DNA from: a virus
DNA: 22,469 nucleotides
Reading direction: 5' to 3' (one strand)
Virus record (IMG/VR): IMGVR_UViG_3300009068_000221
Coordinates: 1-22,469 of that record
Part shown: one piece after another, positions 9,178-13,907 of the stretch
How the letters are laid out: every line of letters begins with the position of its first letter
How positions within the stretch are numbered: the first letter of the stretch is position 1
The notes under the pieces: generated by a model
Databases searched by the model: none
Told to the model about the DNA's origin: nothing
The model's input: the letters and a program-made list of their open reading frames with translations, nothing else
Program-made: the position numbers and the translations under genes

Positions 9178-9654
9178 TTATGCTGCACGCATGTAAGACT
9201 TATATCTGTCTGCAGCGTATGATGCTGCAAATGCGTTTGGCTTCACAAATGGAACTACATTGCACATACCTTTAATGTAACCAACAGCTTCGTTGATTAC
9301 ACAAGATGAACCATGCATTTCGTTTGGATTAATATCCAGATGCACTTGGACTTCTCTGTCTTCCAAAACATCCTGCATCTTTAGATACAAATCTGCAATC
9401 TTATACACTTCGTTCATCAATCGCATACGTGGTTTGTCTTTCTTCTGGTCGTAGCATCTCTCACGAGACACTTCACCGAAGATTTTACAACCATTATTAC
9501 CATTGATATGAACAACAATCACTAAGATGTAATCAGCGTACCAATCATTCCCGATATTAAATCGTTCAGAGTCACCACCGATATAAATCTTTGATTCAGG
9601 ACTCTGTGCCTCGATGAATGCTTTTACTTCATCAATATCGATCGCTTTACGCAT
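9178..9654 (-). CDS. YkuK/DUF458-type RNase H-like protein
   Basis: A 158-aa protein matching the DUF458 (B. subtilis YkuK) family of the RNase H fold: IYIGGDSERF with Asp at 28, a central strand YILVIVVHING, then HLDINPNEMHGSS (Asp near 107) and a C-terminal FAASYAADRY with a late Asp near 149. These are in place for metal-dependent nuclease chemistry, though the family's biochemical role is unproven. The ATG has GAGG upstream. It lies between tRNA-Gly(TCC) and tRNA-Gly(GCC), so a role in tRNA or RNA handling is conceivable. Confidence 0.85.
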   Translation of the reverse strand: MRKAIDIDEVKAFIEAQSPESKIYIGGDSERFNIGNDWYADYILVIVVHINGNNGCKIFGEVSRERCYDQKKDKPRMRLMNEVYKIADLYLKMQDVLEDREVQVHLDINPNEMHGSSCVINEAVGYIKGMCNVVPFVKPNAFAASYAADRYKSYMRAA

Positions 9655-10191: not shown

Positions 10192-10265
10192 TGGTGCTCC
10201 GTGAGAGAATCGAACTCCCAACTGATGCTTACAAGGCAACTGTTATACCACTTAACTAACAGAGC
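10192..10265 (-). tRNA. tRNA-Thr(TGT)
   Basis: 74 nt, acceptor GCTCTGT/ACGGAGC, loop CTTGTAA giving anticodon TGT, CCA encoded. Its 5' 14 nt overlap the end of the upstream protein gene. Confidence 0.94.
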
Positions 10266-10905
10266 ATAATTCGTTTACAAAATCTAATAACAGTGTGTGG
10301 TGTCTTCCACCATTCCAATGTTTGTTTATGTATTGCCATGGTTTCTCATACCAATACAAAGGTGCTTCTAGATGGCAACCTATCAATCCTATTCTTCCCT
10401 GTATGATTGCCATTGGATCACCATTGGCATATCGTGCGACAGTCTTAAATTTACTTTCGTCTCCAATCAATGCACATCCATCATAGAAGTACATTTGTTC
10501 TTTTATTCTATTCCACTCTACATCAGCAACTGTGCCGTAACTTCTACGAACAGTGGCATTTGGTCTCTTTATGTACTGAACTGGACCAACATCAGTAAGT
10601 ATATCGAAATACCTACTTCCAGCCCAATAAGCACCCATGCAAATGCCAAGATAGTGACCACCACCATCCAAGAATCTGGCGATTCGATTCGCTCTTGTTC
10701 TAGTGAAGAAATTAGGATAGCTGTCACTATCCCCAATACCCCCAGGAAAAGCAATAACATCAATATGGTCAAAGAAATTATCATCGTCCAACTCGCTTTC
10801 TTCAAATATCCGTATCTGGTAATCTGAAGAAAGAGCATTAACCATGGCATACGCACAGTCTTTCGAACATTCTGGGTGGTGAAGATATAATGCCATTCGT
10901 TTCAT
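10252..10905 (-). CDS. Class I glutamine-amidotransferase-like (BPL_N-type) protein
   Basis: A 217-aa protein with the fold of BPL_N/GATase-1 proteins: VIAFPGGIGDSDSY at 50-63, the nucleophile elbow GICMGAYWAG with Cys89, and GCHLEAP with His178 and Glu180 completing a Cys-His-Glu triad. BPL_N domains are thought to remodel cofactors or modify peptides, but the substrate is unknown. The start is the ATG at 10905; the longer frame runs into tRNA-Pro. The stop codon lies inside tRNA-Thr, so tRNA 5' processing would cut the mRNA just before its stop codon. Confidence 0.87.
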   Translation of the reverse strand: MKRMALYLHHPECSKDCAYAMVNALSSDYQIRIFEESELDDDNFFDHIDVIAFPGGIGDSDSYPNFFTRTRANRIARFLDGGGHYLGICMGAYWAGSRYFDILTDVGPVQYIKRPNATVRRSYGTVADVEWNRIKEQMYFYDGCALIGDESKFKTVARYANGDPMAIIQGRIGLIGCHLEAPLYWYEKPWQYINKHWNGGRHHTLLLDFVNELCSVS

Positions 10906-10920
10906 AACACTACTTATAAA

Positions 10921-11160: not shown

Positions 11161-11185
11161 TAAATGCTTTCTCTCCGTCGTGGTA

Positions 11186-11194
11186 ATTATAGCA
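11186..11194 (-). promoter_or_regulatory. Extended -10 promoter candidate for tRNA-Leu
   Basis: TGCTATAAT on the minus strand is an extended -10 (TGnTATAAT), placed about 25 nt before the tRNA-Leu 5' end. No -35 match is seen, which extended -10 promoters do not need. Confidence 0.5.
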
Positions 11195-11201
11195 CATCAG
11201 T

Positions 11202-11309
11202 TTACTTCTGGTTTGTGTACATCGCACCAGTTTCTCCATCAAGCATGCCCTCCACCCACTCGCCACGGACAGAACTCTCGTGTTGCCAACGCTGGTTAGG
11301 TAGACCCAT
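11202..11309 (-). CDS. Small protein between tRNAs, 35 aa
   Basis: The product reads MGLPNQRWQHESSVRGEWVE then GMLDGETGAMYTNQK. A GAG motif lies about 8 nt before the ATG. The composition is clearly protein-like and the frame is closed before tRNA-Leu. The upstream half of this gap (11310-11407) holds three small hairpins and no gene. Function unknown. Confidence 0.6.
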   Translation of the reverse strand: MGLPNQRWQHESSVRGEWVEGMLDGETGAMYTNQK

Positions 11310-11407
11310 GATTTAACTCATGCCCTATTCAAAGGGAGAACCATCCTACTGATCGTCAATCAGTTTCTCTCGTGCGGATCACACTAGCAGTGATTAGCTG
11401 CAGGGCT
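11310..11407 (-). other. Untranslated stretch with serial hairpins
   Basis: Downstream of tRNA-fMet the minus strand holds ATCAC/GTGAT, CTGAT/ATCAG and CATGA/TCATG stem-loops in series. No T-run follows. It may be a 3' processing region or the leader of the 35-aa gene. Confidence 0.4.
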
Positions 11408-11569: not shown

Positions 11570-11662
11570 TGGTGGAGCAACTTGGAGTCGAACCAAGATT
11601 GTTTACCCAGAGGGACGAGATTTACAGTCTCGGGATGCACACGCCATAGCATCAATTGCTCC
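11570..11662 (-). tRNA. tRNA-Tyr(GTA)
   Basis: 93 nt class II tRNA with a long variable arm, perfect acceptor GGAGCAA/TTGCTCC, anticodon stem CGAGA/TCTCG, loop CTGTAAA, CCA encoded. Confidence 0.96.
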
Positions 11663-11667
11663 AATGA

Positions 11668-11815
11668 TATTAGTTTAGTGTTATCGTGCCTATTTGTCAA
11701 CAATGTAGCTAGCACTGACGAGCGAGTGGCAGTTATATCAGACAGTGTCAGTCGCACCCTAACTGTCGAGTAGTGATTGATCAGATCACGCTACCTTGAT
11801 AACACTAAACTAATA
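11668..11815 (-). ncRNA. Candidate structured RNA (148 nt), no coding
   Basis: The ends form a perfect 18-bp inverted repeat (11668-11685 with 11798-11815). Inside are further complementary pairs: GTAGC/GCTAC, GTGAT/ATCAC around a 7-nt loop, and CAGTTA/TAACTG. It begins 4 nt after the next RNA element and ends 5 nt before tRNA-Tyr, so it sits in the array like a tRNA gene. No reading frame with a ribosome site is present. It resembles in position the stable RNAs C and D of the T4 tRNA region. Confidence 0.6.
11672..11700 (-). promoter_or_regulatory. Possible promoter for tRNA-Tyr
   Basis: -35 TTGACA (11700-11695) with 17 bp to TAAACT (11677-11672), overlapping one arm of the inverted repeat. 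The -10 match is only 4 of 6. Confidence 0.4.
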
Positions 11816-11819
11816 CCAC

Positions 11820-12054
11820 ATTTAATTACACTGGGATGTTTGGAAACAACCACCACTCGGCAGTTAACCACGCTATCGTCTAGCGACTGGTTTCCATCCA
11901 CATTATGTTCCAACATTCTCCAGCGTGACCACCGTATCCGCTTACTGATTTCAGCTTCGTTTCCATCTTTCGTGTAGTTTGGCGAGCGATACTCCGTCGA
12001 GTATCCTAAACTCCCAAACCACCTACTGGTTTTGGTAACCCAATGTAATTAAAT
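11820..12054 (-). ncRNA. Candidate structured RNA (235 nt)
   Basis: The ends (11820-11835 and 12039-12054) pair over 16 bp. The one exception to Watson-Crick pairing is G-U in the minus-strand RNA but A-C on the other strand, which points to the minus strand as the folded transcript. Inside are a GATACTC/GAGTATC hairpin with GACG loop (11988-12005) enclosed by AGTTT/AAACT, a CGCTA/TAGCG hairpin extended by AACCA/TGGTT (11866-11892), and CCAAAACCA/TGGTTTGG with one bulge (12014-12035). It starts 1 nt after the tRNA-Glu 3' end. Confidence 0.65.
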
Positions 12055-12055
12055 C

Positions 12056-12131
12056 TGGTACTCGATGGGGGAATCGAACCCCTCCTTCCTGCCGTGAAAG
12101 GGCAGTGTCCTAACCGATAGACGAATCGAGC
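12056..12131 (-). tRNA. tRNA-Glu(TTC)
   Basis: 76 nt, acceptor GCTCGAT/ATCGAGT (one G-U pair), anticodon stem CTGCC/GGCAG, loop CTTTCAC, CCA encoded. Confidence 0.94.
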
Positions 12132-12332: not shown

Positions 12333-12361
12333 ATTATACATCAAACATCAGTATAAGTCAA
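12333..12361 (-). promoter_or_regulatory. Sigma-70-like promoter inside the tRNA array
   Basis: -35 TTGACT (12361-12356), 17-bp spacer, -10 TATAAT (12338-12333). It drives the structured leader and tRNA-Glu. Confidence 0.78.
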
Positions 12362-12476
12362 CAAGTATTTTGCAATTTGCCAGTAATTTTTCAACTGACG
12401 ACCTCGGGGATCCGATCCCTCTGTCTTACACTCGGAGGACCAGTGTTGGCACTGGTCTTTGTGATCCCACTGTTCC
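12362..12476 (-). other. Untranslated stretch with a strong hairpin
   Basis: After the 26-aa gene the minus strand carries a 7-bp hairpin GACCAGT/ACTGGTC and a local GGGAT/ATCCC stem that looks faintly like a T-arm. It has no functional anticodon and no CCA end. It has no T-run, so it is not a clear terminator. Confidence 0.4.
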
Positions 12477-12557
12477 TCAGCGGTCTCCAAGTGGTGTTTG
12501 TTTTTTCATTTCATAGATGAATTCTACATCAGCTATGAATTTACGACAACAACTCAT
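12477..12557 (-). CDS. Very small protein, 26 aa
   Basis: The ATG at 12557 has GTAAGG 8 nt upstream, a good ribosome site. The product begins MSCCRKFIADVEFIYEMKKQ and ends TPLGDR, with two adjacent Cys and a helix. A 7-bp hairpin (GTAATAC/GTATTAC, 12580-12597) separates it from tRNA-Cys and may guide 3' processing. It is short, so confidence rests on the ribosome site and placement. Confidence 0.55.
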   Translation of the reverse strand: MSCCRKFIADVEFIYEMKKQTPLGDR

Positions 12558-13249: not shown

Positions 13250-13257
13250 ACATAATA

Positions 13258-13349
13258 TGGCGGAAGACAGAGGAGTCGAACCCCATCCCATTTCTGAGAA
13301 CCCAGTTTTCAAGGCTGGTCGCAGGACCAACCCCGCTGCATTATCTTCC
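13258..13349 (-). tRNA. tRNA-Ser(TGA)
   Basis: 92 nt class II, acceptor GGAAGAT/GTCTTCC, loop CTTGAAA, long variable arm with GAAA loop, discriminator G, CCA encoded. Confidence 0.95.
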
Positions 13350-13356
13350 ATATCTT

Positions 13357-13820: not shown

Positions 13821-13869
13821 ACAGAATCCTGAATTGTAAAAGAACAATGTTACTAGCACGATGGCTATA

Positions 13870-13907
13870 AAACAAAAAACCCTCTGGACTTTCATCTCAG
13901 AGGGTTT
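13870..13907 (-). terminator. Strong rho-independent terminator before the tRNA array
   Basis: A 10-bp stem (AAACCCTCTG/CAGAGGGTTT) with an 11-nt loop, followed on the minus strand by TTTGTTTT. It ends the short unit starting at 14054. Confidence 0.85.

Follow-up and report, generated by a model that had tools for sequence, protein, structure and literature searches.

Two structured RNAs between tRNA genes of an uncultured T4-like phage and an unrelated RNA that occupies the place of one of them

The tRNA islands of phages harbour RNAs for which no function is known, including RNAs C and D of phage T4, GOLLD and ROOL. The T4 RNAs (rnaC and rnaD; 139 and 119 nt) are neighbours in a tRNA cluster, that of a T4-type phage, and are closely packed, being set 1 and 6 nt from the tRNA and from one another; in number, size, setting and packing they resemble the two elements described in this study. 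GOLLD and ROOL are, like these elements, structured phage RNAs that often lie near tRNA islands, and copies of them assemble via kissing loops and other inter-copy contacts (PMC12286853). In Escherichia coli, the rrnB transcript unites a promoter, a boxA and tRNA-Glu(UUC) with an RNA whose ends are joined in a long helix, a combination also met at loci of the elements. Bacterial Y RNAs share with the elements a long terminal helix and an association with tRNA.

The stretch of DNA analysed here (the window), IMG/VR record IMGVR_UViG_3300009068_000221, derives from an uncultured phage and measures 22.5 kb (22,469 nt). In it, 26 minus-strand tRNA genes were called between 9061 and 13820; the closest match of its T4-type RNase H-like protein is a Synechococcus T4-like phage protein (43%). 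Within the array, the minus-strand order is tRNA-Glu, 1 nt, element E1, 4 nt, element E2a, 5 nt, tRNA-Tyr. An earlier note, made from this single sequence, had described two elements of 235 and 148 nt at these very spacings, with terminal helices of 16 and 18 bp, and the tRNA calls and coordinates agree with it exactly. The individual features are as follows:

11820-12054, minus strand: E1 RNA, 235 nt (fold z-score, covariation, homologues)
12054-12039 paired with 11835-11820, minus strand: E1 closing helix, arms ATTTAATTACATTGGG and CCCAGTGTAATTAAAT, 16 bp including one U-G pair
11998-11995 and 11880-11877, minus strand: GACG loops on two hairpins of E1
11668-11815, minus strand: E2a RNA, 148 nt (fold z-score, covariation, match to its own model at E 2.6e-26)
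11815-11798 paired with 11685-11668, minus strand: E2a closing helix, a perfect 18 bp, lengthened to 21 bp in the predicted fold by pairs between flanking bases
11722-11755, minus strand: E2a pseudoknot, GCGA (11755-11752) with UCGC (11725-11722) (unsupervised covariation and direct counting)
11814-11818, minus strand: UGGUA 3' of the right arm of E1, complementary to the UACCA end of tRNA-Glu (12060-12056)
12056-12131, minus strand: tRNA-Glu(UUC), upstream neighbour of E1 (ARAGORN and Rfam)
11570-11662, minus strand: tRNA-Tyr(GUA), downstream neighbour of E2a (ARAGORN)
12333-12361, minus strand: sigma-70-like promoter, TTGACT-17-TATAAT, 5' of tRNA-Glu-E1-E2a (11 of 12 consensus positions)
13831-13846, minus strand: boxA-like TGTTCTTTTACAATTC preceding the first tRNA of the array (at most three substitutions relative to E. 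coli rrn boxA)

Further features of the array, all on the minus strand, are recorded here in their own right. Two protein genes lie within it, one encoding a biotin-protein-ligase-N-like protein (10252-10908; PF09825) and one an RNase H-like protein (9178-9654; PF04308). An apparent tRNA-Ser(UGA) at 13250-13356 was left uncalled by ARAGORN, which does call it at the equivalent place in two other loci (L008, L009), and a tRNA-like stretch at 12395-12490, which contains an 8-bp hairpin and ends like a T-arm, received no tRNA call. The spacer between tRNA-Leu and tRNA-Met (11161-11407) is 97% identical in some relatives and folds no better than shuffles.

On the minus strand, the predicted folds of E1 (-83.4 kcal/mol, z -4.97) and E2a (-49.8 kcal/mol, z -4.30) were not equalled by any of 200 dinucleotide shuffles in either case. 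A neighbouring 247-nt spacer, used as a control, gave a z of -0.36; strong folding is therefore not general to the tRNA array. The earlier note had proposed to test its reading of folded minus-strand RNAs by looking in related phages, at the corresponding site of the array, for compensatory changes; these were found. In an alignment of 27 E1 sequences, 24 of the 52 pairs have changed on both sides and 98.6% of cells pair, with a covariation score of 0.365 compared with 0.158 in shuffles and no more than 0.076 with slid partners; for E2a (37 sequences), 31 of 38 pairs are double-changed, the pseudoknot included, 98.1% of cells pair, and the score is 0.673 versus 0.198. None of 500 shuffles reached the observed score for either element. 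Across 62 distinct E1 homologues, the predicted helices again give the strongest mutual-information signals, and strong covariation appears in the closing helix, which hardly varies among the close sequences. In the case of E2a, unsupervised mutual information from 90 sequences places 16 secondary-structure pairs on top, directly followed by two pairs of the pseudoknot. By direct counting, the pseudoknot is complementary in 88 of 88 homologues, a count that is slightly generous, given that the best of several GC sites is picked; seven rows are misaligned at the site, and two of the 90 sequences could not be counted directly.

Taken over E1, E2a and the E2b family introduced below, G-U pairs outnumber A-C mismatches by 364 to 24 on the tRNA strand, which assigns the RNA to that strand. 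Owing to the relatedness of the sequences within these families, the shuffle counts cannot be read as probabilities; no such limit applies to the slid controls or to the compensated replacement of whole arms. These elements show compensatory base changes on one strand, a criterion for a structured non-coding RNA. Judged by the covariation of their homologues, E1 and E2a are RNAs, and that they are conserved as such we regard as practically certain.

Relatives were gathered by searches with the RNase H-like protein and with a second array-encoded protein, and then with RNA-specific DNA patterns; two scans of the families returned at least about 120 stretches each. The closest relatives retain the order tRNA-Glu-E1-E2-tRNA-Tyr together with its spacings, so that the same place in the array is kept in many of them, while two (L016, L255) carry E1 without E2. 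More distant copies of E1 are located ahead of tRNA-Glu, between other tRNAs, or behind a promoter without nearby tRNAs, and in two loci (L353, L360) E1 lies outside tRNA arrays altogether. E2a is found after tRNA-Glu or near tRNA-Tyr, tRNA-Cys and tRNA-Asp, and also in contigs of 260-345 kb. Exact matches to its arms in bacterial genomes (L365-L369) are not E2a according to the E2a model and were taken as unrelated inverted repeats.

Among 48 contigs of 20 kb or more that were chosen solely by protein relatedness, E1 is present in 11, E2a in six and E2b in three; seven of the nine E2-bearing contigs also contain E1 (Fisher p 1.3e-4), and E2a and E2b never occur together. The same exclusion is seen over about 250 E2-bearing loci, 129 with E2a, 121 with E2b and none with both, although these loci were picked by pattern, some contigs entered repeatedly, and the majority of loci are just a few kb long. 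From these distributions, it follows that these are accessory elements, that E1 and E2 tend to occur together, and that E2a and E2b look interchangeable. E1 and E2a are widespread families, present in many uncultured phages, with a swapped-in alternative, which is beyond what the reading of a single sequence could have revealed.

This alternative, E2b, is an unrelated RNA of 120-122 nt that occupies the E2 place within similar arms (L049, L252, L257, L263, L275, L288). It is absent from the window and was found in 84 distinct places (e.g., L049:18778-18898), and its fold is supported by double changes in 26 of 35 pairs, with no shuffle of 500 reaching the score. One of its hairpin loops is an 8-nt palindrome that takes 11 different sequences in 46 rows and stays palindromic throughout this change; 98.9% of cells self-pair, three of the four positions are double-changed, and the score is 0.842 compared with 0.238, shuffled loops rarely matching the observed self-pairing. 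The two inner pairs of the palindrome cannot form within one hairpin and hence point to pairing between copies, most naturally read as a kissing-loop homodimer—a prediction for which there is no biochemistry. No self-complementary varying loop of this kind was present in the E1 or E2a alignments. Kissing of the GACG loops of E1 and E2a with CGTC loops of E2b was also considered and rejected, the pairing, judged by eye, not being conserved across genomes.

E2b further occurs on its own in small phage contigs (L498, L527, L546, L492, L506, L515, L533, L537, L544), between co-oriented genes and beside those for DNA polymerase, primase, helicase or replication initiation, in one instance 5' of a terminase gene and in another (L533) with a promoter immediately 5'. 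These standalone copies speak for action in trans rather than for a tRNA spacer; however, their position between co-oriented genes leaves a cis-regulatory role possible there. A 524 kb phage contig (the IMG/VR contig behind L135, G017) contains two E2b copies, at 121405-121528 and 422699-422822.

The link of the elements to tRNA ends is close. The tRNA directly upstream is Glu-UUC for 102 of 123 elements. In 112 elements, the closing helix begins no more than 3 nt from a tRNA ending in CCA, and in 105 of these TGG stands just 3' of the right arm, by which the closing helix can extend into the CCA of the tRNA. At the discriminator position, 100 of the 105 pair, mostly as A-U, which is replaced by U-A in four cases and by G-C in two. 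Evidence for compensation at both of the further bases beyond CCA is weak (p 0.03), and the UGG:CCA pairing itself is unable to covary, the CCA being invariant. In the window, UGGUA (11818-11814) lies opposite the UACCA of tRNA-Glu, the two being separated by a small mismatch (one base against two). The flush closing helix offers a concrete and testable idea of how phages process dense tRNA arrays.

Signals of transcription accompany this arrangement. The promoter at 12361-12333 is near-consensus and lies within a segment conserved in relatives; sigma-70-like promoters occur within 330 nt upstream of 70 of 244 elements, compared with 74 of 1009 control stretches drawn from the loci of these elements, and an rrn-type boxA (TGTTCTTTAA) within the same distance of 39 of 244 elements, compared with 15 of 1009 controls. 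The site at 13831-13846 is the sole boxA match, at up to three substitutions, on the minus strand of the window. At about 13870-13905 on this strand, just 5' of the first tRNA and its boxA-like site, lies a hairpin (CCCTCTG..CAGAGGG) that, with the T run after it, resembles a terminator. Elsewhere, too, phage tRNA operons with an rrn-type boxA leader were observed, often arranged as promoter, boxA, tRNA-Glu and element. Such leaders suggest that phages use the host's rRNA antitermination.

We propose that, in this uncultured T4-like phage, a strong host-type promoter would drive transcription through tRNA-Glu, E1, E2a and tRNA-Tyr, and that each element would close on itself by its long helix, of about 16 bp in E1 and at least 18 bp in E2a. 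By pairing with the CCA of the preceding tRNA, the helix would be extended, leaving the precursor with almost no single-stranded spacer at that point. Cutting at the tRNA ends, probably together with RNase III cleavage within the helix, would then free compact, decay-resistant RNAs. Release as a stable RNA is very probable in our view, even though both the stability and the processing enzymes are inferred in the absence of transcript data. For the freed RNAs, action in trans in the infected cell is the likeliest course, an inference that we hold to be reasonably probable; they would bind and sequester, or scaffold, a host factor involved in translation or in the handling of RNA. Sequestration of such a factor is the mode of action that we favour, yet no more than a tentative suggestion, its target being inferred and not demonstrated. 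For the explanation as a whole—stable, processed, trans-acting phage RNAs that derive from a tRNA transcript and bind a host factor—the chances are a little better than even, considering that no transcript data and no known partner support it. The patchy accessory distribution would fit a role in host interaction, and the E1 and E2 RNAs may be tools for the takeover of the host's RNA or protein-making machinery. An unrelated RNA in the place of E2a suggests two folds doing one job. That E1, E2a and E2b are interchangeable trans-acting RNAs, held flush to CCA during synthesis, with at least one acting as a kissing-loop homodimer, and that they jointly seize a host process, remains speculative and could well prove wrong; if true, it would amount to a widespread RNA-based strategy of takeover or counter-defence without a described counterpart.

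The main rival to trans action is a purely cis-acting processing device, in which the helix locks the CCA of tRNA-Glu and offers an RNase III site, and the element merely times or protects tRNA maturation, like the stalks around rRNA, with no job after release. Helix lengths suitable for RNase III, a flush junction with the CCA in most elements that abut a tRNA, and the rrn-operon-like layout of promoter, boxA, tRNA-Glu and long closing helix all speak for it. A spacer, however, would not need an elaborate conserved interior, a pseudoknot or invariant unpaired stretches, nor does this role explain why the self-complementary loop of E2b covaries or why most neighbouring tRNAs do without such elements; copies of E1 and E2b without an adjoining tRNA, outside tRNA arrays, are likewise hard to account for as tRNA spacers. 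We thus consider it rather unlikely, though in need of being kept in mind. The trans-acting reading would include, as a special case, decoys for defence nucleases that attack tRNAs, co-expressed with replacement tRNAs. Co-transcription with tRNAs and the arms-race-like character of patchy, modular, exchangeable families agree with this, yet no anticodon-like feature has been identified, and the chance of its being correct appears slim.

Readings that dispense with new RNA families fare worse. Long inverted repeats, the different interiors of E2a and E2b within similar arms, and the exchange of modules within E1 would be compatible with mobile inverted-repeat cassettes or recombination hot spots that act at the DNA level and have no RNA function; the asymmetry between G-U and A-C, the covariation of inner stems and pseudoknot, and the constant orientation relative to the tRNAs leave this hardly any credence. 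Very elaborate folds and the patchy coverage of published phage RNAs would also leave room for membership of a known class that escaped the searches through divergence, be it ribozyme, intron, riboswitch, Y RNA, or a fragment of rRNA or tmRNA; we judge this very unlikely. At curated thresholds, Rfam 15 returned tRNA families only for the window, and E1 and E2a remained without a match at E values up to 10, in keeping with the remark in the earlier note that no named family was known with this layout; the relaxed search with other E1, E2a and E2b representatives gave only tRNAs and chance matches. For Y RNAs, a Ro60/TROVE gene was found in none of 12 related contigs, some of them fragments. Mimicry of rRNA was not supported either, local alignments to E. 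coli 16S, 23S and 5S rRNA not being clearly above shuffles, with a borderline case for E2b and 16S rRNA (score 27 versus a maximum of 25 in 60 shuffles). Searching the E1, E2a and E2b representatives with blastn against 50,697 GenBank phage records found none, and the three models had no match in 11 cultured phages, including T4 and KVP40, while positive contigs reach E 1e-56 with the same models. No description of the three families was found in the literature; thousands of published RNA candidates from human microbiomes (PMC8040213) were not compared, and absolute priority can therefore not be claimed.

Compared with the known systems, the likeness to T4 RNAs C and D, which the earlier note had raised, holds for position but not for homology. 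The T4 order is tRNA-Arg-D-C, so that the preceding tRNA is Arg, unlike the Glu before E1; the predicted folds of rnaC and rnaD lack a long helix joining the ends, and rnaD, in contrast to E1 and E2a, folds no better than shuffles. No homology in sequence or fold was seen, the folds being different and the E1, E2a and E2b models finding nothing in T4. The terminal hairpin of rnaC (L303:1409-1547) has a GGTTCGAATCC loop and resembles a tRNA T-arm. The E. coli rrnB spacer differs from the phage loci in the order of boxA and tRNA, and bacterial Y RNAs have different folds and gave no Rfam match. GOLLD, often longer than 800 nt, and ROOL are indeed larger, as the same note had pointed out, and both far exceed the 120-250 nt of the present elements; their Rfam models do not match E1, E2a or E2b representatives, and a dimer interface, as in the assembly of GOLLD and ROOL, is predicted for E2b only and not for E1 or E2a. 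E1, E2a and E2b are thus best read, priority aside, as previously undescribed families of the kind represented by GOLLD, ROOL and T4 RNAs C and D; being small, numerous and strongly covarying, with a pseudoknot in E2a and a predicted dimer interface in E2b, they should lend themselves much more readily to structure determination and experiment than the giant RNAs.
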